DNA of 25,167 nt from a virus. The notes beneath the pieces were generated by a model. That model ran no database searches and was not told the origin of the DNA. It saw only the letters and a list, made by a program, of their open reading frames with translations. This document shows, in pieces, positions 10,044-25,167 of this stretch. Location of the stretch: positions 1 through 25,167 of IMG/VR virus record IMGVR_UViG_3300025274_001926. One strand, written 5' to 3'. Position 1 is the stretch's first letter. Each line of letters starts with the position of its first letter. The position numbers and the translations under genes were made by a program.

Positions 10044-12743
10044 ATGGCCGGAGCCTGCGTAAGTGACCGACCCAAAGACCCGCAAACCTTCTTGCCACCC
10101 GCGGACGAGGTTGGCGGCATCCAAGATGAAGACGCGAGATGCCAGGCCCGTCACGGAGACGGCTGGTATTACAGCCCCCTAGCCGTTCCCGACCAAGTCG
10201 ATTACGTCCAACGCGGCGCAGGTGCCGGAGCCATTTTTGATCCGGTGACCGGCAAAGAGTTGTTCGACTGGAAGGCCACGACCGTATGGGACGAAGCCGA
10301 GATTACCAAGCTTCGGCAGGCCCTCTATATAGCACGTCCTGAAACCAAAGCTATAGCGAATTTCCCCGCCCTCCTTACTCAAACGGTCGCGACGGGTACT
10401 ACGTCGTCCAATCTGGAGGGCTGGCTTGACCTCCTTACGGGTACGGCGGGTGAGCCTGGAACGTCGCCGCAAGACGCAGCGAACTATGCGGCCGGCATCA
10501 TCAACCGATTCCCGCAGATTCCCGGCCTTCTGCCCACAGGTGGGCAGGCGGCGGAGATGGGCGAGGTGGCGGGGTGGGTCGGCGATGCAGGCGTTGTAGA
10601 CCTCGAAACGCTGATCCGGGGCGTCTTTGGGCGTGATGGGAACCACGCCGAAGTTGCCCGGATGATCAAAAGCATGACTGGTGTTGACATTTCTGCCGCC
10701 GCGGGTCCGAGTGGTCCGAGCCGGGAGCAAACATCCGCATCGGCGTATGCAGCGGGACTCCTAGCTAGCAATCCAGGCCTGTCGGAAAAGACGAATCAGG
10801 CGGAATTGTCGGCGTTGGTGTACGCCGCCTTCGACCAGGGTGGTGATGCCGCAGAGGTTTCCCAGCGGATCTGGGATGTGTACAAGGTCAACGTATCGGA
10901 GTTCCTCCCTCCGGGTTCGCAGACGGAGGATGCCACGGCAGCGACCGAGGCGGTCCTCAATGCCCACCCAGAACTTCTCACTGATTACGGAAACGTGACA
11001 CTGGAATCGCTTACAACGGCGATCGGCGCTGCGTTGGCTCGCGGCGAGGGTTCCCAAGGTATTCGGGATGCCGTTCTGGGGGAGAGTGGTGGCAAGATCG
11101 ATATTTATAAGGCTGCCCCAACCCTGCACACGATCGCGCTCGGCGACCAAGACTTTCAGGTAGGGACAGAGACGGCGCTCGATTACGCCCTGACGCAGGC
11201 CGATCTCGTAGACATCACGATCGATGGGGTCACCTACAAAGTCCCCACGGTCGACGCGCTCGCCTGGTTGAAATCCGACCGCAACTTCACTCAGATGTCG
11301 GCGTACGAGAAGGGCTCACTTGCCAACTCGATGGCGCGTCACAACACGATGTCGGCGGCGGATATCGGCAATCTGGCTGCACGAAATGCAGAGCTGGCCG
11401 AGTCGGTGCGGTCGAGCATGGTGACCGAGGGGCAACGGGCGTGGGAGTTTGGGCAGGAATTCCCCGAAACGGTGCGCCAGTTTGACGTTACGCAGGCAGG
11501 GCTTGAGTCCCGGTTTGCACGGCAACTTCTTGAGGATCAGCGCCAGGCGAACATCCGGGCGGGTACTGAGCAGTTCGGGCAGCTCACAGGGTTGATCCCG
11601 CAGTTCGGTCAGTTGGCGTTGCAGCAGACGCAGCAGCAGGCCGAGCTTCTGCGGAACCCGGCCGATGTGGGATGGGGCATGGCGACGGCACGGGGAGAGA
11701 CGCCGTGGTGGCCGCAGACAACCCAGGCGGACCTGCTCAATCAATCGGCACAGCAGTTCGCCGACATTCAGGCATTCCTCGCTGATCAAGCGGCTGGGAT
11801 CTACCCGCCGGGAGCGGCGCCGCCTGTCTCCACCCCGCTGCCACAGATGCCACCGCCGTGGAGTCCGCCGCCGATTGACGAGCCGCCGATTGACGAGCCG
11901 CCGATTGACGAGCCGCCGATTGACGACGAAATACCTGACCCGGAAACAGAGTTTGACGAATCCCCTCCTCCACCCAGAGTTATTACGCCCGGTGGTCCGG
12001 GTTCAGGTTGGATTCAGCCAGATGGTGCTGGCGCAGATCTAGAAATATCTGACCCGGAAAGAATGTTTGACGACCCCTTTGATCCTTCTCAATACGGCAC
12101 ACCTGAAGCAGCAGCGTGGGCTCGAAACCGCTTTGATGCAGATACACTTCGGAGACTGCGCGACCAGGGGCTTTCGGGGTTTGATGCAGAACTCCCTGAA
12201 CTGCAATACGGGGGGCAGACGCGCGGAACGCGGGCGCTGATTACGGGAGATTCCTCGTTCGGCCGGCCCAACCCGGAACTCGTGCTCAACCCCACCGGCG
12301 CGCCACTGAAGGTCATCCCGATGAACCAGATGTCGCCACGCGCGGCACGGTTAGCACAGTTTGGGCGCCTACCACGTGCGGAGCATGGATACCCTCACCC
12401 GACGGCGCAGGGGTATAACGCGCTGACCGGGTTCAACTACACGATTCCCGACTTCCCCGTGCCGCCGATGTTTACCCAAGCGGGCATTGTCGAACGCAAG
12501 CGGGCGTTCCTCCCGCCGGGGCCGCGCGATGTCCTTGCTGGGCAGCGACCCGCCCCGCTGGAGTTTGGGTTCCGGATGCCGACGCCGGGATTGATGGGTT
12601 CCCTGACGCCGAATGAGCGTGCCGCGTTTGGTTCCCAACTCGCGTCGGAATACAACACATCGCTTGGGGAGGTGGAGTCTGGCATTCGGCAACGGTTTGG
12701 TCAGACACGTCGCGCACCACGGGCACGCCGTGCCCGGTACTAA
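10044..12743 (+). CDS. 899-aa modular structural protein of unknown function
   Basis: Follows the giant gene by 3 bases and has a plausible ribosome-binding site (ACGGAG). The N-terminus contains WYYSPLAVPDQVDYVQ and a FDPVTGKELFDW segment. Residues 144-354 hold three copies of a helical module. Residues ~430-560 are a long Gln/Arg/Ala-rich helical region (ESRFARQLLEDQRQANIRAG). A Pro-rich linker contains four PPIDE/PPIDD units (residues 609-628). Near 730-765, ALITGDSSFGRPNPELVLNP followed by KVIPMNQ recalls the 'GE-x-GPELV...VIP' signature seen at the ends of tape-measure and other phage structural proteins. The C-terminus is basic (RRAPRARRARY). With the preceding gene it is a candidate internal virion or injection-apparatus protein. 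No enzyme motif was seen. Confidence 0.75.
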   Translation: MAGACVSDRPKDPQTFLPPADEVGGIQDEDARCQARHGDGWYYSPLAVPDQVDYVQRGAGAGAIFDPVTGKELFDWKATTVWDEAEITKLRQALYIARPETKAIANFPALLTQTVATGTTSSNLEGWLDLLTGTAGEPGTSPQDAANYAAGIINRFPQIPGLLPTGGQAAEMGEVAGWVGDAGVVDLETLIRGVFGRDGNHAEVARMIKSMTGVDISAAAGPSGPSREQTSASAYAAGLLASNPGLSEKTNQAELSALVYAAFDQGGDAAEVSQRIWDVYKVNVSEFLPPGSQTEDATAATEAVLNAHPELLTDYGNVTLESLTTAIGAALARGEGSQGIRDAVLGESGGKIDIYKAAPTLHTIALGDQDFQVGTETALDYALTQADLVDITIDGVTYKVPTVDALAWLKSDRNFTQMSAYEKGSLANSMARHNTMSAADIGNLAARNAELAESVRSSMVTEGQRAWEFGQEFPETVRQFDVTQAGLESRFARQLLEDQRQANIRAGTEQFGQLTGLIPQFGQLALQQTQQQAELLRNPADVGWGMATARGETPWWPQTTQADLLNQSAQQFADIQAFLADQAAGIYPPGAAPPVSTPLPQMPPPWSPPPIDEPPIDEPPIDEPPIDDEIPDPETEFDESPPPPRVITPGGPGSGWIQPDGAGADLEISDPERMFDDPFDPSQYGTPEAAAWARNRFDADTLRRLRDQGLSGFDAELPELQYGGQTRGTRALITGDSSFGRPNPELVLNPTGAPLKVIPMNQMSPRAARLAQFGRLPRAEHGYPHPTAQGYNALTGFNYTIPDFPVPPMFTQAGIVERKRAFLPPGPRDVLAGQRPAPLEFGFRMPTPGLMGSLTPNERAAFGSQLASEYNTSLGEVESGIRQRFGQTRRAPRARRARY
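10473..11105 (+). repeat. Triplicated helical module in the 899-aa protein
   Basis: Residues 144-216, 231-284 and 297-354 align by eye. Each has an Ala-rich helix with AAxLLxxxP or similar (ANYAAGIINRFPQ, SAYAAGLLASNPG, TEAVLNAHPE). A second helix follows, LxxLxxxxF-like (LETLIRGVFGRDG, LSALVYAAFDQGG, LESLTTAIGAALARG). A third helix ends in a hydrophobic-Asp/Asn-hydrophobic triplet (VDI, VNV, IDI). The first copy carries a ~20-residue insertion after the Pro. A weaker related stretch may precede it near residues 88-130. Confidence 0.65.
11868..11927 (+). repeat. Four tandem 15-bp repeats encoding PPIDE
   Basis: The unit CCGCCGATTGACGAG is repeated at 11868-11882, 11883-11897, 11898-11912 and 11913-11927. 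The first three are identical and the fourth ends in GAC instead of GAG. The frame is kept, giving PPIDEPPIDEPPIDEPPIDD, an acidic Pro-rich linker. Perfect short repeats of this kind readily gain or lose units by slippage. Confidence 0.95.
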
Positions 12744-12798: not shown

Positions 12799-13611
12799 AT
12801 GCCGCCAGAGAATGAAAACGCAGAGGCCACTGCGGAGTTTTCCCCGGAGCAAGTAGCGGATGCGCCGGTAGCCGATGAGGTTACCGAGGTAGACGCCCCT
12901 TCCTCTGAGCAAGACGATGCAGCCGCCTCTGAGGTAGTCGCCGACCCCGTGCAATCGCGGCTCGACGAACTCGGCCTGAATGCTGATCGGGTGATGCAAC
13001 TCCAGTCAGCGATGGGCCGGGTGGGTGGGTTACAGAGTGAAGTCGATAAGGGGTCCAAGCGGGTCGAGGAACTTCTCACTCGTATGGACAACCGCGACCA
13101 ACTCCTTGTAGCGCTCGCTCAGGGCATTTCCACCTCCGATGTATTGGACGAGCAGTCGAAGACCAGTGTCGCCTCCTTGATCGATACATTTCAGAGTCAA
13201 TCCGACCGCGCCGCCATGATGGATGAGTTGCGCTCGGAGATGCAGACCGCTCAGCAGCCGCCCTTGCCGCCGGAATGGCAGCAAGCACAGCAACGGATTG
13301 TGAGTTACGCCCAGTCACAGAACGTGGACCCGACGACGATTCCCGCCGAAATATGGCAAAAAGGGAGTCAGTCAGAAAACCCGTTCGAGGCCGTGGATAT
13401 TGCCCGTGACTGGGTTGACGATCAAGACGGACGCAATGGGCGCCTGGCTCGGCGGAAAGCAGCGGCTGGGGCCAATCCACCCGCTGCGGCAGTACCGGCA
13501 AAATCCAAAGACCCGTTGACCATTATCCGCGAATGGGGGGACGACCCTAATTCGCATTCGCTTGAAGAAGCGAAACAGGCGATGTTGGACACGGGGTACA
13601 TCCGGAGATAA
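12799..13611 (+). CDS. Capsid scaffolding protein
   Basis: A 270-residue protein immediately before the major capsid gene, the usual place for a scaffold. The first ~50 residues are strongly acidic and low in complexity (Glu/Asp/Ala). The middle is helical and coiled-coil-like (SRLDELGLNADRVMQLQSAM; VDKGSKRVEELLTRMDNRDQ). The C-terminal 25 residues form a mixed-charge helical segment (EWGDDPNSHSLEEAKQAML) that could be the coat-binding end. No protease motif is present. The start has GGAG 8 bases upstream. The 55-bp gap before it is the widest since position 710, but I see no firm promoter in it. Scaffolds diverge quickly, so the call rests on composition, length and order. Confidence 0.8.
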   Translation: MPPENENAEATAEFSPEQVADAPVADEVTEVDAPSSEQDDAAASEVVADPVQSRLDELGLNADRVMQLQSAMGRVGGLQSEVDKGSKRVEELLTRMDNRDQLLVALAQGISTSDVLDEQSKTSVASLIDTFQSQSDRAAMMDELRSEMQTAQQPPLPPEWQQAQQRIVSYAQSQNVDPTTIPAEIWQKGSQSENPFEAVDIARDWVDDQDGRNGRLARRKAAAGANPPAAAVPAKSKDPLTIIREWGDDPNSHSLEEAKQAMLDTGYIRR

Positions 13612-13614
13612 ATC

Positions 13615-14484
13615 ATGGCAGCAGGCGTTACTACCACTTCGTCTCTGGCTGATTCACTACCCGTCATCAAGGCGGCCGCCCGCATCGTGCGCGAGCAAGA
13701 GGGGCGTATGCCCCAGCTCGTGGACCGGCAGCGGCTCGCCGAGGGCACAGGGCTGACCTGGGAAGAGGTCGCGCTGAGCCGTCTGAATGACGCACAGCCA
13801 ATCAGCGAGGGTGAAGAGTTCAACGCGCCGCAGCAACTGGTCGATCAGCTTCTCCAAGCCACCCCACAAGAGGTGGGCTTTGAGATCATCATGACCGACC
13901 GGGTGCGGCGTCGCATTTCCCCCAACGTGTTTGCGCAGACTGGCAGCTTGGCTGGCAGCTCAATGGCGCGCACGAAGGGCAAAGACGGCATCACGCAACT
14001 CGATCAATTCAGCACGTCATTCGGCGGCGCGGGGACGACCTTCGCTGAGGGCTACATCGAAGCGGCTGTGGTGACGATCGAGGGCAACGCAACGGAGCAC
14101 GGCGTCGCGCCGTTCTTCTCCGTGCATCACCCCTTCCAGCGACGCGACCTGTCGGCCGAACTGGCGCCGATTGGCAACATCAGCATCTACGGTGGCCTCA
14201 CCGAAGACCTGATCAAGAATGGCGTCGTGGAGATGACGATGGGTGGCGCCGGCATTGTGTTCGATGCCGTTGTCGGTGCGGACAGCAGTGGAGACTTCAA
14301 GGGCGGCACCTTTGCCAAGATGGCGATCGTGCTGGTCGAAGGCCACGACCTGGAAACTGAGACAGAGCGACTTGTTGGTCGGCGTGCGGATGCGATCTTC
14401 ATGTTCGATGAGTACATTTACGCCGAACGATTCGATTCGGGCGGCGTGGAGCAGTACTTCGACGCCACTGCGCCAACGAGCTAA
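13615..14484 (+). CDS. Major capsid protein
   Basis: A 289-residue protein 3 bases after the scaffold gene, with GGAG 7 bases before ATG. The N-terminal arm is helical (SLADSLPVIKAAARIVREQE). The segment TGLTWEEVALSRLNDAQPIS and later strand-rich segments (EGYIEAAVVTIEGNATEHG; GIVFDAVVGADSSGDFKGG) fit a HK97-fold coat protein. FKGGTFAKMAIVLVEGHDLE near the end also fits coat-like beta regions. The length is on the short side for the fold. There is no proteolytic delta domain and no upstream protease, in keeping with a separate scaffold. The protein would assemble around the scaffold and the portal. The call rests on synteny and general character; a specific capsid family was not confirmed. 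Confidence 0.85.
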   Translation: MAAGVTTTSSLADSLPVIKAAARIVREQEGRMPQLVDRQRLAEGTGLTWEEVALSRLNDAQPISEGEEFNAPQQLVDQLLQATPQEVGFEIIMTDRVRRRISPNVFAQTGSLAGSSMARTKGKDGITQLDQFSTSFGGAGTTFAEGYIEAAVVTIEGNATEHGVAPFFSVHHPFQRRDLSAELAPIGNISIYGGLTEDLIKNGVVEMTMGGAGIVFDAVVGADSSGDFKGGTFAKMAIVLVEGHDLETETERLVGRRADAIFMFDEYIYAERFDSGGVEQYFDATAPTS

Positions 14485-14496
14485 GGGAGAAAAATC

Positions 14497-15213
14497 ATGG
14501 CTATGAATGATGGACTCCAGCTCACAGACCCATCGGACTTCGGTGGCACCTACGTCGACAACGGCCACATCGTGCACTACAACGTGCATATCGCCGGATC
14601 GGCTGGCGGTTCGATTGTTGATCCGGGGTTGCCCCGGCGCGGCCTGCAACTGGCCTGTGTAGCTGAAGAAGACGGCATCACCCAACTGATCGGCCCCCTC
14701 GCGTTTGAGGTGGACGAGAACGCGGGGTACTTCCTTGACTGTGAAGTGCGTGCCGTCACGGACGCGAGCGCGGCCGCGGCGTTGTTTATCGGGTTTACCG
14801 ATCAGAACGCCGCGGGCGAAGTGCCGATTGAAGACGAAGACGGCACGCTTCAGACGAACGCCACCAACGCGGTGGGGTTCATGATGGAGCGTCAGCAGGA
14901 TGCGACCTGGCAGGCTGTTAGCGTCAACGCAGACACGGATGGGGCGCAAACGGCCCTGACCGGCGCGAACGACATTTCCAACAATGTCTGGCAGCGCCTG
15001 CGGCTGACGAACAACAACAGCGACGGTGACTTCACGTTCGAGATTTGGGACATCGACTCCAGCGAGCACTACACCTACGCCGGCAACGGCGTGTTGCACA
15101 CGCGGTCTTCCGCGGTGGCAACGGGGACGGTGCTGGCACCGACGTTCTGTCTTGACTCTCGCAACGCGGTTGTGGCCGTGCAGATTCGCAAGCTCACCGC
15201 TGGCACCAACTAA
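14497..15213 (+). CDS. Jelly-roll-like head decoration or structural protein
   Basis: A 238-residue, beta-rich protein with no signal peptide, 12 bases after the capsid gene and with a good ribosome-binding site (AAGGGAG). Strand patterns such as YFLDCEVRAVTD, AAALFIGFTDQ, GFMMERQQDATWQAVSVNAD and QRLRLTNNNSDGDFTFEIWD recall concanavalin-like or LamG-like jelly rolls, which phages use for decoration or glycan contact. The segment DENAGYFLDCEV...LFIGFTD also resembles particle-exterior proteins encoded just downstream of capsid genes. It is probably exposed on the head. A minor capsid or fibre role is the alternative. Confidence 0.7.
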   Translation: MAMNDGLQLTDPSDFGGTYVDNGHIVHYNVHIAGSAGGSIVDPGLPRRGLQLACVAEEDGITQLIGPLAFEVDENAGYFLDCEVRAVTDASAAAALFIGFTDQNAAGEVPIEDEDGTLQTNATNAVGFMMERQQDATWQAVSVNADTDGAQTALTGANDISNNVWQRLRLTNNNSDGDFTFEIWDIDSSEHYTYAGNGVLHTRSSAVATGTVLAPTFCLDSRNAVVAVQIRKLTAGTN

Positions 15214-15222
15214 GGAGGAGTC

Positions 15223-15681
15223 ATGGCTGGACCAATTCCTCCCACGGCGTACGGCATGTGGCGTCCAACTGACGGCACCCTCCAGACGGTTGTTGCCGGC
15301 ACTGTGGCAGCGACGGTTGACACCTCGGGGAATCAAGATTTCCCAGGCGATGTCAAACTCAGCGATGGTGGGACCATCACACAGGCGTCGAGCAAGAGCA
15401 CGGGGGTTACCCTCAATACGCACACCGGGCAGATCACCATGAACGGTGCGGCCTTGGCTGCGGGGGTAGAGGTGACCTTCACGGTGACGAATTCCACGGT
15501 GGGTGCAGCCGATGTGGTTGTACTGAACCATGGTTCGGCCGGAACGGCGGGGTCGTACCTCGTCGGTGTTTCCGCTGTGGCCTCGGGCTCATTCAAGGCG
15601 ACGGTTTCAAACGCCTCCGGAGGCGCGCTCAGTGAGGCAATCGTGCTGCACTTTGCCGTCATCGGCGGCAGTGCGACCTAA
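15223..15681 (+). CDS. Small beta-rich decoration/fibre-like protein
   Basis: A 152-residue protein with a near-consensus ribosome-binding site (AAGGAGG at 15212-15218), suggesting high expression. The first 40 residues are a tag-like segment (MWRPTDGTLQTVVAG). The body (KSTGVTLNTHTGQITMNGAA; VTFTVTNSTVGAADVVVLNH; GSFKATVSNASGG; LSEAIVLHFAVIGG) matches, from memory, a small jelly-roll family that recurs in phage contigs as a capsid-decoration or fibre-tip domain. It overlaps the next gene by one base (TAATG). A structural role is likely; the exact location on the virion is unknown. Confidence 0.7.
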   Translation: MAGPIPPTAYGMWRPTDGTLQTVVAGTVAATVDTSGNQDFPGDVKLSDGGTITQASSKSTGVTLNTHTGQITMNGAALAAGVEVTFTVTNSTVGAADVVVLNHGSAGTAGSYLVGVSAVASGSFKATVSNASGGALSEAIVLHFAVIGGSAT

Positions 15682-16184
15682 TGGTCGCCGTAACCGGATT
15701 CGCGCAAACGGGGTCTGCGCAGGCGTTGGCCTGCTCCGACAGCACCTGTCAGGAGTTAGGTGCCTGCACAGACCCCCAAGCGCATCTGGCGCAAGTGCAC
15801 AACGCGACTCTCCTGCTCCGTCCCAACGATCCGGCACGGATCTACGCGGAACGGAACAAGGACGGTCGTCGCTGGCGCATCGTCAAGACCAATCGTGACG
15901 GCGTTCTCCGCGCCTATGTCGATGACATGGGTCCGGAGGACGCCTTTACGGCACACCCCTTTGATATTCCCAGCGTCGGGGACGACCCCAGCGAGTGGAA
16001 TACGGTGGGGGAGTGTTTCGATATTGCTCGGGAACGGCACCTGCTACCGGTTCGGCATAAAGCCCAGCCGGCGACGGGCGCCGCGTACCTGAACGAACTG
16101 ATGGAGCGCAACGCGTTGTTGCGTGCATGGAAAGCGGCACGAAGTCAATTCGGCCCGCTGGGAAAGGTCCAACGCAATGCCTAA
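15681..16184 (+). CDS. Hypothetical 167-aa protein with an N-terminal Cys/His cluster
   Basis: Starts at ATG 15681 inside the preceding stop (TAATG) and overlaps the next gene by 8 bp. The N-terminal 40 residues have Cys at 18, 23 and 29 and His at 35 and 40 (CSDSTCQELGACTDPQAHLAQVH). This could bind a metal, but the pattern fits no family I know. The rest is a mixed globular sequence (RRWRIVKTNRDGVLRAYVDD) with a helical C-terminus (LNELMERNALLRAWKAARSQ). Tight coupling to the following zinc-finger-like gene suggests the two act together during head completion or as virion components. The function is unknown. Confidence 0.65.
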   Translation: MVAVTGFAQTGSAQALACSDSTCQELGACTDPQAHLAQVHNATLLLRPNDPARIYAERNKDGRRWRIVKTNRDGVLRAYVDDMGPEDAFTAHPFDIPSVGDDPSEWNTVGECFDIARERHLLPVRHKAQPATGAAYLNELMERNALLRAWKAARSQFGPLGKVQRNA

Positions 16185-16773
16185 GGTCGACCTGTCGGAC
16201 ATGGACATCCAGGCCCTCATCGATGACGAGGATGGGGCACTCGATAACGGGCATCTCCCGATGCGTCCCATGCACGATGACGACGCCATCGATCGCGATC
16301 ACGCCGTGGTTTACGACCAGCGCACAGGCGTCTCCTCGCTGGTGCGCAAGTACAAGGGCAACGGCACGTTGGCCCACATGCTGAGCAAGCGCGACCAGGC
16401 GACCGGGGAGCGCATCTTTCGGACCTCGCCGCCATCGAGTGGCGTGGCGCCTGGGGAATGGCCGTGCTGGCTGCACCCGGACCATGCGCGCTACGAGGAG
16501 TTCGTGGGCCAGGGATTCCCGAAGTGTGGCAAGACCGGGTACTTCGCGACGGCGCAGGATGTCGAACAGCACGTCCGCGCCAAGCACACTCGAATTCACA
16601 CCTTTGTTCGCGAGCAGGATGCGGCACGCGAACGCGCCGCGGAGCGCGATGGCAACCAGCAAATGCTGGAAGCGATCATGGAGCTGGCGAAAAAGGGACA
16701 GATTGACGACGTACCGGCTGCCGTAAGCGCCAGTGCGTCGCGCGGGAAGAAAGTGGCTGATGACGCTCTATAA
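16177..16773 (+). CDS. Zinc-finger-like phage protein
   Basis: A 198-residue protein with a probable zinc site. C97 and H100 lie in PCWLHPDH. C117 follows in GFPKCGKTGYF, and H132 and H137 in VEQHVRAKHTR. The second half resembles a C2H2-type finger and a recurring phage motif (GxPxCxK...HxxxKH) that I remember from head-tail regions of uncultivated phages. The N-terminus is acidic (VDLSDMDIQALIDDEDGALD). The C-terminal ~55 residues are helical and charged. The ATG at 16177 is chosen over an in-frame ATG at 16123 because it overlaps the previous stop by 8 bp, as neighbouring genes do, and has AAAGG upstream. The role is unknown; DNA or protein binding is plausible. Confidence 0.75.
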   Translation: MPKVDLSDMDIQALIDDEDGALDNGHLPMRPMHDDDAIDRDHAVVYDQRTGVSSLVRKYKGNGTLAHMLSKRDQATGERIFRTSPPSSGVAPGEWPCWLHPDHARYEEFVGQGFPKCGKTGYFATAQDVEQHVRAKHTRIHTFVREQDAARERAAERDGNQQMLEAIMELAKKGQIDDVPAAVSASASRGKKVADDAL

Positions 16774-17119
16774 GACCACGATGCAGTTTGACGCCGACGG
16801 CGATAACACCGCCCAGGTTGCCTTCGCCGGGCCTGGTTGGCTGCTCTCAGTGGAGGCTAGCAACCCGAACGCCGCAGATGCGTACTTGCAGTTGTTCGAC
16901 GTGGCCTCCGGGAGCGTCACTGTGGGCTCGACCACGCCCAATCAGAGTCTCTTTGTCCCTGCTGGGGACGGGACGAAAGACGGGGCGATGGACAAGGATT
17001 TCGGGGCCGGAATCTTCTTTGAGAACGCCATCACCTACGCCTGCACAACGACATCCACAGGGAATACCGATCCCACGACCGGCCTCGTTGTCAACATGGT
17101 CTATCGGAACAGTCCGTAA
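16760..17119 (+). CDS. Hypothetical beta-rich 119-aa protein
   Basis: Overlaps the zinc-finger-like gene by 14 bp. The start at ATG 16760 (MTLYKTTMQFDADGDNTAQV) is more natural than an in-frame ATG at 16733, which would add a basic stretch encoded inside the previous gene. The sequence looks like one beta-sandwich (GPGWLLSVEASNPNAADAYL; LFDVASGSVTVGSTTPNQSL; GIFFENAITYACTTT). This pattern, in which a scalar quantity is wrapped in strands, recalls small phage accessory proteins of the head or tail. There is no enzymatic motif. It is probably a minor virion protein. Confidence 0.7.
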   Translation: MTLYKTTMQFDADGDNTAQVAFAGPGWLLSVEASNPNAADAYLQLFDVASGSVTVGSTTPNQSLFVPAGDGTKDGAMDKDFGAGIFFENAITYACTTTSTGNTDPTTGLVVNMVYRNSP

Positions 17120-17140
17120 CCCTGTTGCGAGGGAGATGCT

Positions 17141-18457
17141 GTGAGCCGTACGGGTGCCCAACTCCTATCCGCCCTATCGGATTTCCTCAATGACGACTGG
17201 TCGTCGACCACAACGTCGGCCGGCGCATCCAGCGGGGGCACCCTGATTGATACGGGGTTGCGCCGCTTTGGCAATGATGCGATTCGCGGGTGGTATTTGC
17301 GCCCAACCGGCGCGGCGAACCCCTATGCGATTCGGCGCATCACGAGCTTTGCGGATGCCACCGGCACCGCCACGGTATCGCCCCCCTTTGCCGCGCAGGC
17401 TCCATCGGGCCAGACGTACGATCTCCACCGCTTTGACCCGGCACGCAAGTTTGCGGCGCTCGACAAGGCCCGTCTACGTGGGTATCCCGACCTAGCGCAG
17501 ATCGTCTATGACGACACGGTTTTTAGCGACGGCAGCACGCAGACCTTTGCCATCCCGTCCACGATCCGCAAGGGACCGGCCTATGTGTTCCAAGAGAACG
17601 CGGTCCCCCCGGAACCAGCGTGGAACTTCATTCAAGACCCGCGCGGCGATGTCGTCACCAACTGGGCGGCAAGCAGCATCACGGCCAGCATCGTCAGTGA
17701 GAATGATGCCGATCTCGAGGTGCCCAAATACCGCGAGGACTGCACGAAGTTCGTTGTCGCGGCGTCGACCGCCGGGACGTACAGCCAGGTTGTCGGATCG
17801 ATGGCGAATGATGCGAGCGCCAGTGGGGCCGCGGGACGCAAGATGACCTTCGCGGCGTGGGTCTATTCCAACCTCGCCGACAAAATTCGCTTGCAGATCC
17901 TCGATGACGGCGGCGCGACGAGCGGGACGCAGCACCAGGGTCGCGGCTGGGAACTGTTGACGGTGGAAAAGACGATCCGTCAAAACAACAGTTCGACGCT
18001 GACGGCCGTCTTTGATGTGGACAACGATTCCAACCCCATTACGGCGTATTGGAACCGGGCGTGGCTCTACTACGGTTCGGCATCGCGCGTGCGGGACATC
18101 TACTTCGACCGCGTGCCGGAACGGATTCGCCGCGACGACACGACACAGACGTTTGAGACGCGCGCCACCCCGCCGCGGGGGATCAACCTGCGGCTGGTGG
18201 GACGCACCACCCTGAGCGCCCTGGGCGCGACGGCAAGCTCACAAGTGACCAACACGATGGAAGTGGATGACGCGAGCAGCCAGCTCCTCCTGGCGACGGC
18301 CGCACGCATCCTGCTGGAAGATGAGGGTCTACTGGTCGACGACCAGAACCCCGTATTGCAGCGGGTGGGCGTGGTGGAGGAGCGGCGCCGGGAGTACGCG
18401 GTGAAGTGGCCCTTTACCCTCCCGGCGACGCCACAGGCGCGGAGCGTGTGGGGGTAG
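17141..18457 (+). CDS. Neck/tail protein with carbohydrate-binding-like module
   Basis: A 438-residue protein with a GTG start and a good AGGGAGA site. Residues 1-110 (LLSALSDFLNDDWSSTTTSA; GWYLRPTGAANPYAIRRITS; YDLHRFDPARKF) resemble an N-terminal domain I know from phage connector/tail proteins lying between capsid and tail genes. Residues ~165-310 are a beta-sandwich with the look of a carbohydrate-binding module: FVVAASTAGTYSQVVGSMAN, KMTFAAWVYSNLADKIRLQI, AYWNRAWLYYGS. The C-terminal region (GINLRLVGRTTLSALG; RREYAVKWPFTLPATPQARS) fits an attachment or multimerisation part. The role is probably in the neck or tail, possibly with glycan contact. It is not a hydrolase by any motif seen. 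Confidence 0.7.
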   Translation: MSRTGAQLLSALSDFLNDDWSSTTTSAGASSGGTLIDTGLRRFGNDAIRGWYLRPTGAANPYAIRRITSFADATGTATVSPPFAAQAPSGQTYDLHRFDPARKFAALDKARLRGYPDLAQIVYDDTVFSDGSTQTFAIPSTIRKGPAYVFQENAVPPEPAWNFIQDPRGDVVTNWAASSITASIVSENDADLEVPKYREDCTKFVVAASTAGTYSQVVGSMANDASASGAAGRKMTFAAWVYSNLADKIRLQILDDGGATSGTQHQGRGWELLTVEKTIRQNNSSTLTAVFDVDNDSNPITAYWNRAWLYYGSASRVRDIYFDRVPERIRRDDTTQTFETRATPPRGINLRLVGRTTLSALGATASSQVTNTMEVDDASSQLLLATAARILLEDEGLLVDDQNPVLQRVGVVEERRREYAVKWPFTLPATPQARSVWG

Positions 18458-18460
18458 CGT

Positions 18461-20440
18461 ATGGTCAGTCCCACACTCGACAGCCGCACTGCTGATATCT
18501 ACCTCGAATGGGGCGGGGTGAAGATGGGCTACCGGCTCGTCAACAGCCCGGAGGGCAATATCGCGGGATATCGTCCGGGATTGGCTCCCGACCTGGCGCC
18601 ACAGCAGCGGACGACGCCGTTCTCCTACGAGCACGAAGACCCCCGTGTGGACATCCCCGTGGCCTTTGAGGATTTCCGTGGGGGTGCCGGGACGGAGCGT
18701 GCCGAGAGTGGGCTTGGTCCTGGTGAGACACCGATTGCCACCCTTCGCTACAACTACGCCAAGGGGCTGGATCTCAGTTGGCCCAACCGGCTCTACCTCT
18801 CGCCGGAGCAGCAGACGACCAGCGGGGTCGCCGCGGCGCCCTTCGCCTTCAGCGAAACCAGCTTGGGCATCTTCGTCACCGCCGGCCGCTACCTCTACGA
18901 GTTGAGCGCGACGACGTGGACGCAGCGACACGACCTGGGCGCGGATAAGGCGTTCACGGGTGGGGTGGTGGAGTTCAGTGAGTCGAATGATGCGGCCGTT
19001 TTAGTCGCCGCAACGGGCGCTTCGGACATTTACGTCTATTCCACTGATGGGATTACGTGGTCCGATTCCGGCGCCGACGACAAGAACTACATCGACTTCA
19101 CGGTGCGGGGGCAGAGCAGCAACACGCCGCAGCTCTGGGCGGTAGACACCGCTGGACAGATTCGCGTTACGCAAGCGCCCCGCAGCGGCGGGACTACATG
19201 GTCGGCGAGCACGCATTTGGGTGTGGCGGGTGAAACGGTGCAGCGCCTGCTGACGGCGGATGACCGCATTCATCTCTTCAAAGTCGAGGGCATCTGGGAT
19301 TTCGACGGCACCACTCCGCAGGACGTGTGGACCGGCGGGCGGCAGATGCAACGGACCGACAACGGGACCAACCCGTTCCTCTGGAATGATGGCCGGATCT
19401 ACGTGCCGTACGGCGATCGATTGATGCAGTTCGACCCGCAGGCCGCGGCGGGTGGCAATCCCTCCTTCACCTTCGTCTATCCGCGACTTCCGGTCGGGAA
19501 CCCGGTCGTCAACGGTCAGATCACGGCGATTACGGGCGATGGGGATTTTCTTTATATTGCGACGAAAAACAGCGATGGGGACACCTACCTCCAGAAATGG
19601 GACGGGAACCCCCAAACCGGCTGGCACCCCTTCGTGTACCTCGGCGCGAACGATTGCGGCGCAATGATCGTGCTGGGGCCGGGGACGCCGGAGACGAGCA
19701 ACCCGTGCTTGGTTTTTGGCTACGGGACTGCGGTGCGATACGTGATTCTGCCGCGATCGGGGATGCGGCCTGAGGACGACAGCAACTACCGCTTTGAAAT
19801 CAGCGACAGTGGGAACAAGGCGTACGGCCCGTGGATGACGGTCGGTGCGCAGCTCTTCAGCAAGTTCCTCAACGCGGGCCGCATCGTGTCCGAGAGCACG
19901 ACGGGTGGGCGGGCGATCGAACTGTCGTATGAGATCGACAACAACGGGACGGAAACGTCGCTGGTGGTCGCCAACGCGGCCGGCACGCAAAAAACGATCG
20001 TCACCGATGAGGTGGAGTTCAACCGTATCCGCTGGATTATCGAAGGGCGCAACACGGATAACACCCTCTCACCCCGCGCCTTGGGGTGGATCTTCAACAC
20101 GACGCTCAACCCTCCGCGCAAACGCAGTTGGCAGTTGGATCTGATGATCAGCAACCTGACCAACCAACGCGGCGGCGGCGGGGCACTGCGCGAAGCTGGG
20201 CGTTCAGCCGAGGAACACCTCTTTGGTGCCGCTGAGCAGCGCGTGACGTTCTATGATCGGGATAACCGGACGTTCATCGTTCGGATACTGGATATTGGCG
20301 GCGCCGGTGCCGCCCCCGCACAGTCAGGGGATGTGCGGTTCCATACGGTGAGCCTGATTGAGATTTCGGAGACGACGGAGAATCCTGACCCCCTAACCTG
20401 GGACGAGGACGCCTGGGACGAGAAGGGATGGGGCACCTAA
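18461..20440 (+). CDS. Propeller-like tail protein
   Basis: A 659-residue protein starting 3 bases after the previous stop, at ATG preceded by GGGGG. The middle contains repeated blade-like units: GIFVTAGRYLYEL, AVLVAATGASDIYVYSTDG, QLWAVDTAGQIRV, LLTADDRIHLFKVEGIWDFD, NDGRIYVPYGDRLMQFD and DGDFLYIATKNSDGDTYLQK. These fit a beta-propeller of about six or more blades. The C-terminal third (FNRIRWIIEGRNTDNTL) is beta-rich and ends in the Trp/Asp motif WDEDAWDEKGW, which is common at the ends of phage tail proteins. In podovirus-like tails a large protein here often forms the tail tube or hub. The role is assigned from fold-like pattern, size and order. Confidence 0.75.
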   Translation: MVSPTLDSRTADIYLEWGGVKMGYRLVNSPEGNIAGYRPGLAPDLAPQQRTTPFSYEHEDPRVDIPVAFEDFRGGAGTERAESGLGPGETPIATLRYNYAKGLDLSWPNRLYLSPEQQTTSGVAAAPFAFSETSLGIFVTAGRYLYELSATTWTQRHDLGADKAFTGGVVEFSESNDAAVLVAATGASDIYVYSTDGITWSDSGADDKNYIDFTVRGQSSNTPQLWAVDTAGQIRVTQAPRSGGTTWSASTHLGVAGETVQRLLTADDRIHLFKVEGIWDFDGTTPQDVWTGGRQMQRTDNGTNPFLWNDGRIYVPYGDRLMQFDPQAAAGGNPSFTFVYPRLPVGNPVVNGQITAITGDGDFLYIATKNSDGDTYLQKWDGNPQTGWHPFVYLGANDCGAMIVLGPGTPETSNPCLVFGYGTAVRYVILPRSGMRPEDDSNYRFEISDSGNKAYGPWMTVGAQLFSKFLNAGRIVSESTTGGRAIELSYEIDNNGTETSLVVANAAGTQKTIVTDEVEFNRIRWIIEGRNTDNTLSPRALGWIFNTTLNPPRKRSWQLDLMISNLTNQRGGGGALREAGRSAEEHLFGAAEQRVTFYDRDNRTFIVRILDIGGAGAAPAQSGDVRFHTVSLIEISETTENPDPLTWDEDAWDEKGWGT

Positions 20441-21397
20441 ATGGCAATTACACGAGCCGTTGCCAACGCGACGGCAACCAGTACGCAGTTCAATCAGATT
20501 ATTGACCATCTGGAGGGCGACAGCGGGTCCACGCTGGCCTACTTCCTTCGCGTGCTCAGCAGCAACAATTTCACGATTCGTTTGCCCGACGCCGGCGGGA
20601 CGCAGGAGTTCCGTATTCAGGACTCCGCTGGGGTCACTGTTGGCAGCATCGACTCAGACGGCAACGTGGCGTTTATCGGGGCCACCGCCCTGACCGGCAA
20701 TCTCGACGTGGGTGGCACGCTGGAGCTGGGGTCGTCCAACATCACAACCTCCACGGCGGCTGGGTTGCTCAAGCATGAAGCGGGCGGCCTGGAGTTCGAT
20801 GCCTCGGCGATCACGACCGGTGGCCTTTTCAAAGGTGCCTCTTCTGGCACCGCAGCCATCCTTGCCAAGGGTGCGGCGAACACCGTCCTCACGATGGCGG
20901 CTGACGCATCTGACTTCGCGTGGGCCGCGAGCACCGGGGCGCTGACGCACGAGGGTTCCCAGCTCACCGAGGCCTCGTCCAATGCGACCAGTGAGACGGA
21001 CCTGATCTCAGTCACTTCCCTCTCGATCGCCGCTACGAAACCGATTCTCATTCGGGCTTCGATTCGGAAGACATCCGGCACGAGTGACAATTACAGCTAT
21101 GGCCTCAAGTTGAATAGCACGGGTGTTGTGCAAGCCGGTGGGGCGACCGGGATCGCCACATTGTCAACGTCGAGCGCCCAGGCGGGGAGTACCACCATCT
21201 ACATTCCGCCACGGTCGGCCAATTACCTCCGGGCCGTGTCAGCCTTCGGTGGCTCTGGGAACCCCACGGTTCCCACCTACAGTGCTGACGCGCCAACGGC
21301 CGATATTACATCAATCACCTTGACGTACAATGGGGCGAATTCAGACACGACCTGCTCCTGCGACGATATGCATGTCTTTACGGTGGCGACATCATGA
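20441..21397 (+). CDS. Tail fibre/receptor-binding-like protein
   Basis: A 318-residue protein starting directly after the previous stop. The N-terminus includes a helix (FNQIIDHLEGDSG) that could dock to the tail. The middle has short Gly/Thr/Asp-rich strands typical of fibre shafts (VTVGSIDSDGNVAFIGATAL; TGNLDVGGTLELGSS; GTAAILAKGAANTVLTMAAD). The C-terminal ~140 residues form a globular beta domain with many Ser/Thr/Gly, near TCSCDDMHVFTV. This is the usual layout of a host-recognition fibre. No chaperone or depolymerase motif was seen. The call is based on composition and position. Confidence 0.7.
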   Translation: MAITRAVANATATSTQFNQIIDHLEGDSGSTLAYFLRVLSSNNFTIRLPDAGGTQEFRIQDSAGVTVGSIDSDGNVAFIGATALTGNLDVGGTLELGSSNITTSTAAGLLKHEAGGLEFDASAITTGGLFKGASSGTAAILAKGAANTVLTMAADASDFAWAASTGALTHEGSQLTEASSNATSETDLISVTSLSIAATKPILIRASIRKTSGTSDNYSYGLKLNSTGVVQAGGATGIATLSTSSAQAGSTTIYIPPRSANYLRAVSAFGGSGNPTVPTYSADAPTADITSITLTYNGANSDTTCSCDDMHVFTVATS

Positions 21398-21660
21398 CCA
21401 AGAAGCGATACATGCGAGTCAAGGCGACCGGCGCGTGGGTGAAGGATCTGGAGTGGGGCGGCAGCGCCCTGGAGATCCCCCCGGAGAACCACTGCGCCAA
21501 CATCGCGAAGGCCTTAGACATGGACCCGGCGGAGCTGGAGGCGGTCGATCGCGCGAGCGATCCAAGAAAAGGCACATTTGTTTCGCTTCCACCGAAAGAG
21601 CCATCAGAGGCTCCACTGAGCGAGGCTGAACTGAAACGGCTTCGTGCCCTACTCGATTAG
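21394..21660 (+). CDS. Hypothetical 88-aa protein
   Basis: Overlaps the fibre gene by 4 bp (ATGA), so expression is likely coupled. The first 40 residues are mixed (KKRYMRVKATGAWVKDLEWG). The C-terminus is helical and charged (PLSEAELKRLRALLD). No family was recognised. It could be a fibre assembly helper or accessory because of coupling and position; this is inference. Confidence 0.6.
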   Translation: MTKKRYMRVKATGAWVKDLEWGGSALEIPPENHCANIAKALDMDPAELEAVDRASDPRKGTFVSLPPKEPSEAPLSEAELKRLRALLD

Positions 21661-21673
21661 TTAGGAGAAACCC

Positions 21674-22141
21674 ATGCCGTTCTATGGACCCGCTGCTGCT
21701 GGTGGTGGTGCCACTTATCTCGTCAAAGAAGCTGACGAAACGGTCAATAATTCAGTCACGCTTCAAGACGACGACGATTTGACCTTCACCATGACGGCGG
21801 ACAAGATTTACGCCTTCACGATGGCGCTACTTGTCACTGGTAATTCCAGTGCGGACTTCAAGCTCAACATCGATGTGGCGTCGAGCGGCGCGGCTGATTA
21901 CATGCTGACGTATGCGAACACCGGGGGAACCTTCACGGGGGAGATGAAGTGGGAAGGGGAAGTCACGTCGGTGTTTACCGATGGGTCGTGGCATCGCACC
22001 GTTTCGGCAATCGCTACCGGCATGTTGATTTGCGATGGGACCAATCGTCTTGTGAAACTCCAGTGGGCGCAGGCTTCAGCACACGCCAGCGATACAAAGT
22101 TGCTAAAAGGATCATGGTTCGCCTACGAGGAGTTGGCCTGA
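21674..22141 (+). CDS. Beta-rich virion accessory protein
   Basis: A 155-residue protein with a clear ribosome-binding site (TAGGAG) upstream. Sequence segments ETVNNSVTLQDDDDLTFTMT, KIYAFTMALLVTGNSSADFK and EGEVTSVFTDGSWHRTVSAI fit a jelly-roll. The first, with 'TVNNS-x-TLQDDDDL', matches a small protein I recall from tail-fibre loci of uncultivated phages. A fibre tip, decoration or capping protein is likely. The next gene starts 1 base after its stop. Confidence 0.7.
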   Translation: MPFYGPAAAGGGATYLVKEADETVNNSVTLQDDDDLTFTMTADKIYAFTMALLVTGNSSADFKLNIDVASSGAADYMLTYANTGGTFTGEMKWEGEVTSVFTDGSWHRTVSAIATGMLICDGTNRLVKLQWAQASAHASDTKLLKGSWFAYEELA

Positions 22142-22142
22142 T

Positions 22143-22460
22143 ATGTCTACGCGCTATGCCAAAGTTGGGAAGAAATGGTTTGCCGCGAGCAAACATCGCG
22201 ACGGTGAGTTCAGGGTTGATCTCCAAGCGTGGGCGGACCAGATCGGTGCCGCGCACGACTATGCCCCTGGTGAGGTGGAGGGGGTTGAGGTCGCCGACGG
22301 CGAGAAAGACCCGCGTGGGCGCGCCAAGCGAATCACCGACCCGATCCCGCCGCCGCCACCCCCGACGCCGCGTGAAGTGGTCAAGGCAGCCCTGTCCCGC
22401 GCGGGCACCGTGGCGGAGATCAAGGGCGCACTGGCCGACTACTTCGATGGTCCCGGGTGA
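22143..22460 (+). CDS. Hypothetical 105-aa protein with Pro-rich linker
   Basis: Starts 1 base after the previous stop. It has a compact N-terminal domain (KVGKKWFAASKHRDGEFRVD), a polyproline linker of seven Pro (PIPPPPPPTP) and a C-terminal helical segment (REVVKAALSRAGTVAEIKGAL). The helical end could be a short interaction or DNA-binding element. It lies between fibre-type genes and the lysis module. The function is unknown. Confidence 0.6.
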   Translation: MSTRYAKVGKKWFAASKHRDGEFRVDLQAWADQIGAAHDYAPGEVEGVEVADGEKDPRGRAKRITDPIPPPPPPTPREVVKAALSRAGTVAEIKGALADYFDGPG

Positions 22461-22600
22461 TCCGCAAGCGCGGCGATAAGTTTGTCGTGACCGCCAAGAG
22501 CGGCCGCACGCTGGGGACGCACCGCACCCGGAAGGCCGCGGTCCGGCAACTGGGGGCCGTGGAGACGGCAAAGGTGCGCAAGACGAAGCGGAGGCGCTAG
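22457..22600 (+). CDS. Small basic 47-aa protein
   Basis: A GTG start at 22457 overlaps the previous stop by 4 bp (GTGA), and the stop TAG abuts the next start. The product is very basic. It contains LGTHRTRKAAVRQLGAVETA, which resembles a recurring short phage protein with a G-T-x-x-T-x-x-A-x-x-QL-x-A-x-E pattern whose function is unknown. It is similar in style to the tiny basic proteins at the left end. Genes this short are easily missed by annotation. Confidence 0.6.
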   Translation: MIRKRGDKFVVTAKSGRTLGTHRTRKAAVRQLGAVETAKVRKTKRRR

Positions 22601-22813
22601 ATGCCGAGACGCCCGGCCATGCCCGACGCCAATGGCGATACCTTTCGCGCGACGACGTGGGTCATGCTGGAGCACCTCGATGATGAAATTGACGCGCAGC
22701 GACGGTCGATCGAAATGCTGCGCGAGCGCCTCGACAAATTACTCCTGGCGATGTTCGGGGTCGGCGGGGCAGCGATTGCGAGCCTCATTGCCATTATCGC
22801 CACGGGAGCCTGA
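22601..22813 (+). CDS. Holin-like small membrane protein (coiled coil + TM)
   Basis: A 70-residue protein. Residues 22-46 form an amphipathic coiled coil (LEHLDDEIDAQRRSIEMLRE). Residues 47-68 are a single membrane helix (LLLAMFGVGGAAIASLIAII). It starts directly at the previous stop. The order coiled coil then one transmembrane segment fits small phage holin or haemolysin-XhlA-like proteins that permeabilise the inner membrane for the endolysin. Two more small membrane proteins and the amidase follow. Confidence 0.7.
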   Translation: MPRRPAMPDANGDTFRATTWVMLEHLDDEIDAQRRSIEMLRERLDKLLLAMFGVGGAAIASLIAIIATGA

Positions 22814-22815
22814 CC

Positions 22816-22908
22816 ATGACCACGCACATTCTCACAGCGATCGGTGTCGTCAGCGGCGCGATGATCGTCGTCACGATTTTCTTGAGCTGGCTCGGCACAG
22901 GAATTTAG
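22816..22908 (+). CDS. 30-aa single-pass membrane peptide
   Basis: Translation of 22816-22908 gives MTTHILTAIG followed by a hydrophobic run (VVSGAMIVVTIFLSWLGTG). It starts 2 bases after the stop of the holin-like gene, inside the lysis module. It could be a holin partner, antiholin or membrane-disrupting peptide. It is short enough to be a chance ORF, but the hydrophobic profile and tight spacing support it. Confidence 0.5.
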   Translation: MTTHILTAIGVVSGAMIVVTIFLSWLGTGI

Positions 22909-22919
22909 GGAGATAACCC

Positions 22920-23132
22920 ATGCCACGGAAACAGCGCACGTTCCTTCCGCAAACACAGGCCGCGATCGACAGCTTGCTGGCGCGCTTGCTTCGCACGGAG
23001 ACATTGGCCGTGATCGGCGTCGCCGCAATCGCCCTGGTCGGCGACCTGGAAGCCGAGGGTGTCATCAGCAGCGGCGCCGCCGGCGTGGCTCTCGTGCTCG
23101 GCCGCAGCCTCGTCAAACGGGGCGAGAAGTAG
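22920..23132 (+). CDS. Second holin-like small membrane protein
   Basis: A 70-residue protein with a clear GGGAGA site upstream. A basic/polar N-terminus is followed by a hydrophobic stretch (LAVIGVAAIALVGDL, about residues 29-43) and a second, weaker one (SSGAAGVALVLGRSL, about 50-64), then a basic C-terminus. Two hydrophobic segments and small size suit a class II-type holin. It precedes the amidase by 2 bases. Whether this or the 22601 gene is the main holin cannot be told from sequence. Confidence 0.65.
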   Translation: MPRKQRTFLPQTQAAIDSLLARLLRTETLAVIGVAAIALVGDLEAEGVISSGAAGVALVLGRSLVKRGEK

Positions 23133-23134
23133 CC

Positions 23135-23878
23135 GTGCGGGACGCGTACCCGATCGAGCAGTTTGAGTTCAAGAATTTCCCGGTGATCAATACCGGGATA
23201 CCAAGGGCGATCTGCCTGCACACGGACGGCAACCCCAACCCACACACGGCGCTCGACGCCCTGAAATGGGGCGACCGCACGGGTTCCTTCAGCATCCACT
23301 ACTACATCGATGCCGACGGCACGGTCTTTGACGGCGTACCGGACGAGCAGCTCGCCTTCCACGTCAAGGAATACCGGATGGCTGCCTCAAAAGCGTGGCC
23401 GACGACCCACCCGGACGTGGAGGGGAAACGCGGTGACATCGGGGTCATCGGCATCGAGAACGTGATGAATGCCTCGGCGCATTGGTCCCAGGAAACGCGC
23501 ATCTCGCTTCTCCTGCTCGTCGGCAATCTCGTGAAGCAGTGGCCCCACCTTGCGGACGCGATCGTTGAACACGCAGATTTAGACCGATGGACCCGGGCCG
23601 AGGACGTGGGGCCGGCATTGCACCTCGCCGATTTCCGTGCTGATATATCGGATCTGCTCAGTGGGGAATCGGCACCGTGGCGCACCGTCGGCGAAGTGGC
23701 GACCGGCACACGCATGCCCGAGTCGGCCCGGCCCAAGCTGACGATCGTGCCTGCGACTGCGGCGGCACCACAAACACAACTAGCGGCGCTGGAGTCTCGT
23801 GTTGACGAGCTGGAGGCGACCGCGATCACATTGTCGGCGAGCCTCTCCCGCCTCCGGGAGCACCTGCGCGAGTCGTGA
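23135..23878 (+). CDS. N-acetylmuramoyl-L-alanine amidase (endolysin)
   Basis: A 247-residue enzyme that would cut the bond between muramic acid and the peptide stem, releasing progeny phage. It resembles the Amidase_2/T7 lysozyme fold. H29 (CLHTDG) is the first likely zinc ligand. SFSIHYYIDADGTVFDGVPD (51-70) and the AFHVKEY site (H76) match family landmarks. GIENV (E108) matches the IGIE motif. VEHADLD (H146) and EDVGP (D157) sit where the second His and the K/D-PGP motif usually lie; the usual Lys before D-P-G-P is not obvious. Residues ~211-247 are a coiled coil instead of a classical wall-binding domain. The GTG start follows the previous stop by 2 bases, with a weak ribosome-binding site. 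Confidence 0.85.
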   Translation: MRDAYPIEQFEFKNFPVINTGIPRAICLHTDGNPNPHTALDALKWGDRTGSFSIHYYIDADGTVFDGVPDEQLAFHVKEYRMAASKAWPTTHPDVEGKRGDIGVIGIENVMNASAHWSQETRISLLLLVGNLVKQWPHLADAIVEHADLDRWTRAEDVGPALHLADFRADISDLLSGESAPWRTVGEVATGTRMPESARPKLTIVPATAAAPQTQLAALESRVDELEATAITLSASLSRLREHLRES

Positions 23879-23890
23879 TGTGAGCGGGTT

Positions 23891-24466
23891 TTAGAACAAG
23901 CGGCCCTGGTCGCTCGTCGTCGTGGGCACGACCGGCGCGGCGGTGAAGTCGTGCCGGTACGCCGCACGCTGCTGGGCGATGGCGAGGTAGTGCGGGTCGA
24001 GGTCGGAGCCGATGAAGCCGAAGCCTGCATCCAGCGCCGCCATCCCGGTTGAGCCGCTGCCGCAGAATGGATCGAGCACGGTCCCGCCGGGCGGCGTGAT
24101 CAGAAGACAGAGGTAGCGCATGAGGCCGATCGGCTTGACCGTGGGGTGATCGTTGCGGCGGGTGTCCGTCCGAAGGCACGGGTTCTCGATGTCCTTGGCA
24201 CGGCCATCGCTGCGGCGCTCTGGTGCGAACCCTGCTAACCCCGCCTCTCGCTCCGCCCGTCCGGCCTTTGAGCTGTAGAAGAAGCGGGAGGGACCGTCGT
24301 CATTCTCGGCATCCAGCAGCGCCCCGCCTCTTCGTCGAGGATCAGGTTGGCGGGCCATCGGCCAGTTGGTTTGTATTTGGTTAGATCGACTGTGTGTGTC
24401 GCATCCCCGTCGATCCCGTAGTTCTGTGGGGCTGCGGAGATATTCGTTGTGACGGGGCGATCCCAT
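23891..24466 (-). CDS. C-terminal part of frameshifted DNA methyltransferase
   Basis: The reverse-strand continuation of the methyltransferase begun at 25089. The frame stays open upstream to an ATG at 24466, but only the part downstream of about 24321 is homologous-looking. It contains GALLDAENDDGPSRFFYSSK, NDHPTVKPIGLMRYLCLL and TPPGGTVLDPFCGSGSTGMA. The last is the SAM-binding motif I (DPFxGSGxT) of beta-class amino-methyltransferases. The usual order in this class is motif IV (DPPY) before motif I, as here across the two frames. Read after the slip, the two parts form one enzyme of about 399 aa. The first ~47 residues of this open frame overlap the N-terminal part in another frame and are not expected to be native. 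It ends 12 bases from the convergent amidase gene. Confidence 0.7.
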   Translation of the reverse strand: MGSPRHNEYLRSPTELRDRRGCDTHSRSNQIQTNWPMARQPDPRRRGGALLDAENDDGPSRFFYSSKAGRAEREAGLAGFAPERRSDGRAKDIENPCLRTDTRRNDHPTVKPIGLMRYLCLLITPPGGTVLDPFCGSGSTGMAALDAGFGFIGSDLDPHYLAIAQQRAAYRHDFTAAPVVPTTTSDQGRLF

Positions 24467-25089
24467 GCCTTCTCAAATCCGTCTTCGCTCTCGATCCGCG
24501 TCCCGTCGATATTCAGCGCGCCCGTGCCGTACGCCATCACGTTCTGGGCGACGGTGCCGATGAGCGGCTTGCGGGCCAGCACGATCGGCTCGTAGGCGGG
24601 TTTCAGCGCGGTGCCCCAGCCCTCCCATTGGCGCGACCGCTCAGTTTGTCCCTGATAAGCGTGAAGGTCTTCGCCACTGAGTAATGCTTCACCGGTAGTG
24701 GGGTGCGTGTGGCTTGCGTGTGCGACGGCATGTCCGCGATTCGGTAATCCTTCGCCACGATCGATTGCTCCCGCGACGTTTTTTGATTTGGGGAAACCGC
24801 TACCGAACAGCCACATCAGCACGTCACGAATCTCCCAGCCCGCATCCTCCACCGCGACCATCAGCCGATGGTGGGTGCGGGTGCCGCCGAACGCGAGGAG
24901 GTGCGCGCCCGGCTTCGCCACGCGTAGAGCTTCTGCCCACGTCGCGCGGTCATAGGCGACCCCGGAGGCGTCCCAGGTTTTGGACATGAACCCCAACTCG
25001 TAGGGCGGGTCGGTCACGATTGCGTCGATGCTCTCGGGGGAAAGCGGAAGACAGCGGGCGTCAGCGTGGAGAAAGGTGCCGTCCGTCAT
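24235..25089 (-). CDS. N-terminal part of frameshifted site-specific DNA methyltransferase
   Basis: The reverse-strand ATG at 25089 (MTDGTFLHADARCLPLSPES) begins a beta-class DNA methyltransferase (N6-adenine or N4-cytosine). DPPY at residues 27-30 (TDPPYELGF) is the catalytic motif IV. The GRWPANLILDEEAG segment (243-256) normally continues into ALLDAxxG...RFFY. Here the frame breaks after G256 and the ORF runs on with 28 unrelated residues (RCWMPRMTTVPP...) to a stop at 24235. The real partner continues in the -1 frame. The start overlaps the stop of the upstream methyltransferase by ATGA. Such proteins protect phage DNA from restriction. The break could be a sequencing error, a true mutation, or programmed slippage at GGGG. 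Confidence 0.7.
   Translation of the reverse strand: MTDGTFLHADARCLPLSPESIDAIVTDPPYELGFMSKTWDASGVAYDRATWAEALRVAKPGAHLLAFGGTRTHHRLMVAVEDAGWEIRDVLMWLFGSGFPKSKNVAGAIDRGEGLPNRGHAVAHASHTHPTTGEALLSGEDLHAYQGQTERSRQWEGWGTALKPAYEPIVLARKPLIGTVAQNVMAYGTGALNIDGTRIESEDGFEKAWDRPVTTNISAAPQNYGIDGDATHTVDLTKYKPTGRWPANLILDEEAGRCWMPRMTTVPPASSTAQRPDGRSERRG
24322..24325 (-). other. Frameshift point in the methyltransferase (homopolymer)
   Basis: The plus strand reads CCCC at 24322-24325 (GGGG on the coding strand). The coding sequence is GAG GCG GGG CGC TGC. One extra G would give GAG GCG GGG GCG CTG CTG GAT, which is exactly the family continuation (E-A-G-A-L-L-D). A P-site tRNA on GGG could also slip one base back onto GGG and restore the frame without an insertion. 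This is a single-base deletion signature in a homopolymer run. Confidence 0.75.
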
Positions 25090-25167
25090 GCGAGCAGGCT
25101 ATCGACCCGTACCAGGCGGTGCCCAATCCATTCGGCGACCGGCGCCACCACCCCATTGCCGCACATG
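25086..25167 (-). CDS. C-terminal fragment of a probable cytosine-5 DNA methyltransferase
   Basis: On the reverse strand the last 81 bases read MCGNGVVAPVAEWIG, then HRLVRVDSLLA and a stop. The CGNxVxxPxxEWI pattern matches motif X at the end of C5 cytosine methyltransferases (usually GNxVxPxxxxxI). The rest of the gene, with the PC catalytic loop, lies beyond the window edge. The stop overlaps the start of the next methyltransferase by ATGA, so the two are co-transcribed and probably coupled. Confidence 0.65.
   Translation of the reverse strand, partial: MCGNGVVAPVAEWIGHRLVRVDSLLA

Follow-up and report, generated by a model that had tools for sequence, protein, structure and literature searches.

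Orphan DNA methyltransferases of the beta class (N6/N4; PF01555, PHROG 67) that are carried by phages share a domain order in which the catalytic DPPY motif is followed by a recognition region and then by HPTVKP and the SAM-binding DPFCGSGSTG motif. In the 936-type lactococcal phages, orphan methyltransferases are optional genes that vary between closely related phages, and they are homologues of enzymes shown to methylate phage DNA and to protect it against host restriction (PMC4190342, PMC4759559). Those genes belong to the packaging module, between terS and terL, and some of their products have been shown to be active, whereas the methyltransferase gene described here is broken and has an endolysin gene and a cytosine methyltransferase gene as its neighbors, although it is likewise present or absent among closely related phages. 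A further point of comparison is provided by bacteria, in which phase-variable methyltransferases exist; those of restriction-modification systems resemble our locus in that the reading frame of the methyltransferase breaks at a homopolymer.

Here, we describe a gene that has the domain order of the phage orphan enzymes but is divided in two where its frame changes by one base, a position at which none of the 151 other loci with both halves is split. It lies at the end of a 25,167-nucleotide stretch of viral DNA (IMGVR_UViG_3300025274_001926), which is called the window below. We consider it probable (roughly 0.7) that the split reflects a real and recent inactivating frameshift in an accessory, dispensable, cassette-like orphan DNA methyltransferase carried by an uncultured tailed phage.

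RESULTS

Two halves of one methyltransferase

Two overlapping open reading frames on the minus strand, 25089..24235 (284 aa) and 24466..23891 (191 aa), occupy a span (25089..23891) of 1,199 nt, which is 3n+2, and their frames differ by one base. Consecutive parts of the Pfam N6_N4_Mtase profile match the two halves, positions 1-90 the N half (E 4e-7, 30.6 bits) and positions 144-220 the C half (E 1e-17, 65.2 bits), each above the curated PF01555 cut-off of 26.7 bits. Specifically, the N half (24325..25089, minus strand; 255 aa up to the break) carries the catalytic DPPY (motif IV) and the target-recognition region and also matches PHROG 67 DNA methyltransferase, while the C half (23891..24319, minus strand; 142 aa and a stop, one base back in frame) carries HPTVKP and DPFCGSGSTG, such that the beta-class motif order is kept across both frames. 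These matches confirm the proposal made from the sequence alone that the two reverse-strand frames encode one beta-class methyltransferase of about 399 aa. In comparisons with solved structures, the C half matched the PDB sequences of the CcrM, RsrI, and DpnA methyltransferases, and the N half had no match; one relative (L002) shares 58% identity with the N half. A continuous frame that spans both the catalytic and the SAM-binding parts, as expected of a PF01555 enzyme, is absent here, where the frame shifts by one base at about 24320-24325.

The position of the break can be bounded in two ways. First, the N-half frame is open to codon 285 (24235) and the C-half frame from 24475 to 23893, so that stops alone would allow the switch anywhere in 24475..24235. 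Second, homology narrows this interval to 24320..24325 (minus strand), as the N-half alignment extends through residue 255 (24325) and that of the C half begins at LLDAEN (24319), with about 5 nt between, and the third-position pattern of the reading frame alters past about 24320. A GGGG at 24322-24325, one of 124 G4 runs in the window (with 68 C4 runs) and thus ordinary, falls within this interval. The sequence-only reading had put the join exactly at this run, after residue 256, and had explained the break by one missing G. The break does touch the run, but homology places it only to within about 5 nt, and the loss of a G, while possible, receives no support from the relatives. In the seven relatives that share the preceding residues EEA, these are followed by Ala in six cases (AA, AG, or AR) and by Gly in one (EEAAALLD, EEAAGLLD, EEAARMLD, EEAAAMLD, EEAGRLLD, and similar), which suggests that neither the Gly codon nor the GGGG of the window has to be ancestral. 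The base that was lost could equally have belonged to the G run or to the few bases flanking it.

Sequence quality and a second contig

Some sequencing platforms are known to drop single bases in short homopolymers, and a sequencing or assembly error, with the real phage carrying an intact methyltransferase, would agree with the intact state of every distant relative and with the retention of conserved residues in both halves. Against this, a second contig, IMGVR_UViG_3300008219_004387 (L001/L162), repeats window positions 23479-25167 (1,689 bp), break included, without a mismatch or gap, and its ends differ from those of the window. This contig, the one independent contig that covers the break, probably comes from a separate assembly, since contigs from a single assembly that shared 1.7 kb should have been joined, although it may share reads or a sampling site with the window. 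Further, G001-G004, four other contigs from this phage, cover positions 1-23872 except for a few bases around 13,030, and a comparison of these ~24 kb revealed no single-base indel in genes, the differences being a few SNPs, one copy of a 15-bp tandem repeat, and a C-run that precedes the first gene. The window's more than 190 other G4/C4 runs likewise did not fail. Given the exact second contig and the absence of other coding single-base indels in ~24 kb, we regard an error as unlikely, and less likely than a real change.

Two other sites in these alignments deserve mention. The tandem repeat (EPPID units; window ~11867-11925) lies within an 899-aa open reading frame and differs by one copy from contig 3300025282_004175. 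At 13012-13032, inside the open reading frame 12799..13611, three contigs of this phage terminate and a fourth begins within 20 bp, which may mark either an assembly break or a variable site.

An empty allele in a near-identical contig

The broken gene forms a one-gene cassette between two neighbors. On one side is a convergent endolysin/amidase gene (23135..23878, plus strand; PHROG 9611 endolysin, E 4e-10). On the other is the 3' end of an upstream cytosine-5 methyltransferase gene (25087..25167, minus strand), which continues beyond the window end at 25167 and is complete in the second contig as a 430-aa open reading frame (L001 1712..3004; PHROG 116, E 8e-86). The TGA of this gene and the ATG of the broken one overlap (ATGA), and the two genes were probably translated together.

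Another contig, IMGVR_UViG_3300025270_001933 (G001; L164 and L174 in our alignments), differs from window positions 13032-23872 by 3 mismatches in 10,841 bp. Past 23872, it continues with 5 bp and then with 25090-25167, with one mismatch at 25125. The segment 23873..25089 (no strand assigned) is thus replaced by 5 bp, the whole methyltransferase gene is missing, and the endolysin end runs straight into the cytosine methyltransferase gene, whose frame extends 17 residues past its usual stop. Two of the three mismatches (23863 and 23869) lie at the breakpoint and are synonymous, as are the differing last endolysin codons, which read CAT CTG CGG GAG AGT TAG in this contig and CAC CTG CGC GAG TCG TGA in the window. 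Because these synonymous differences cluster at the breakpoint, we infer that a segment exchange by recombination with a more distant phage is a better fit than simple deletion. Three contigs (the window, L162, and G001) cover the locus, and in them the gene is broken or absent and never intact; being absent from a near-identical variant and broken in the other, it is thus optional, or dispensable, in this population.

Beyond the shared 13 kb, G002 (25210-27799) and L162 (1-1408) are 85-89% alike in patches, indicating mosaic early regions. Among deposited phages, the terminase of this phage had only distant relatives, with less than 28% identity among the matches listed.

Relatives read in one frame

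Relatives of the methyltransferase were found in many phages and in some bacterial genomes. In a first survey, both halves lay in one frame at 147 of the 148 non-self loci that contained them, and in a second, with later loci added, this was so at 151 of 151 other loci (147 by an automatic check and four, L030, L067, L105, and L120, read by eye and found open, their automatic flag as not open having come from their C-terminal ends). This last count excludes L160, the one exception in the first survey, whose break is elsewhere and independent. We considered L160 as a second frame-split relative and rejected it, as its break lies upstream of the matching position and its protein is shorter and different; the locus itself (~2540-3300 of a 186-kb contig) holds a shorter methyltransferase relative with its own frame break. 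A GGGG conserved together with both intact frames in relatives had been proposed as the mark of programmed or phase-variable expression, and the outcome was negative, the two-frame arrangement occurring at 0 of the 151 other loci.

The surveyed loci yield 101 distinct full-length proteins, against which the split gene has 5 of 83 conserved columns altered in its N half (median of the 101 relatives, 3) and 2 of 37 in its C half (median, 1). The enzyme's conserved residues are intact in both halves. Since the split gene retains its conserved columns to about the same degree as the intact relatives do, we take the break to be recent and reject an old pseudogene, with the proviso that "recently intact" is judged from distant relatives with identity of at most ~60%. 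A frameshifted gene still in use would likewise keep its motifs fully conserved in both halves. We weighed three routes by which the split gene could remain in service.

Switches, frameshifting, and subunits

The first is a phase-variable switch through slippage in the G run, suggested by the contact between the break and the run. Four Gs are, however, far below the usual slippage tracts, the break has no long simple-repeat tract, and the run is not kept in relatives. Searches for other alleles, by exact flank pattern and by a pattern that allowed 2-10 bases at the break, returned nothing beyond the two contigs already known and, in the second case, one distant intact homologue, leaving a single tract-length allele in two contigs. 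Unlike the phase-variable restriction-modification methyltransferases, then, this gene has a short tract that is not conserved and for which no alternative lengths were seen, and a switch is highly improbable.

The second route is programmed -1 ribosomal frameshifting on G-GGG, which would give a low level of the full-length enzyme. Both frames are open across the site, and a Gly tRNA could in principle re-pair one base back on GGG. Yet the overlap (24475..24235) contains no slippery heptamer of the form X XXY YYZ, and the gene's two heptamers, TTTCCCC (24796) and AAAAAAC (24784), are both followed downstream by stops in the C frame. The downstream RNA folds no better than its shuffles (MFE -42.5 versus -41.0 +/- 3.6, z -0.41, in a test of folds other than pseudoknots). 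Together with the lack of any of the 151 other relatives in two frames, this makes programmed frameshifting very improbable indeed.

Third, the halves could be translated separately and then assemble as a two-subunit methyltransferase, and the break does separate the catalytic and recognition part from the SAM-binding part. The C frame has an ATG at 24466 with GAGAAGG just upstream, and a further ATG at 24358, but the spacing from GAGAAGG to the ATG is only 1 nt and there is no stop-start coupling. A C half that started at 24466 would carry 48 residues with no counterpart in relatives, as this stretch is N-half coding sequence in the other frame, and the N half would bear an unrelated 29-residue tail. 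None of the relatives is split likewise, and we give a two-subunit enzyme just as little credence as programmed frameshifting. More broadly, it is very unlikely that the methyltransferase is kept split or frameshift-expressed, whether by low-level read-through or by reassembling halves, as a tuned anti-restriction function.

DISCUSSION

The explanation that we favor, a recent inactivating frameshift in a dispensable cassette, can be followed from the gene to the population. Without a frame change, the ribosome would make the 284-aa protein (24235..25089), in which the catalytic DPPY and the recognition region are followed by the out-of-frame tail and a stop (24235..24324, minus strand; delimited by the 284-aa frame and the third-position pattern). 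This product presumably is inactive, as it has no SAM-binding region. By analogy with the 936-type enzymes, hiding the phage DNA from host restriction is the likely role of the intact gene. Flanked by the convergent endolysin gene and the cytosine-5 methyltransferase gene, this one-gene cassette would have been exchanged by recombination; it is broken in one phage variant and gone from an almost identical one.

The sequence-only reading had listed four options for the break. A decaying gene is the best supported of these, given the intact relatives, the absence allele in a clonal sibling, and the lack of frameshifting signals, while an error is unlikely and neither a phase-variable switch nor programmed frameshifting found support. 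Thus, the pattern resembles the loss of an optional gene more than a concealed switch.

This is ordinary biology, in that the gene is of the same kind as the known optional orphan methyltransferases, in a broken state; the new point is the near-clonal contig that lacks the whole gene. Relatives need to be consulted before a frame break next to a short run of Gs is taken for a switch. The locus provides a small, clear example of the turnover of phage anti-restriction genes, in which two near-identical phages differ by one gene-sized cassette and the one copy present is already broken.
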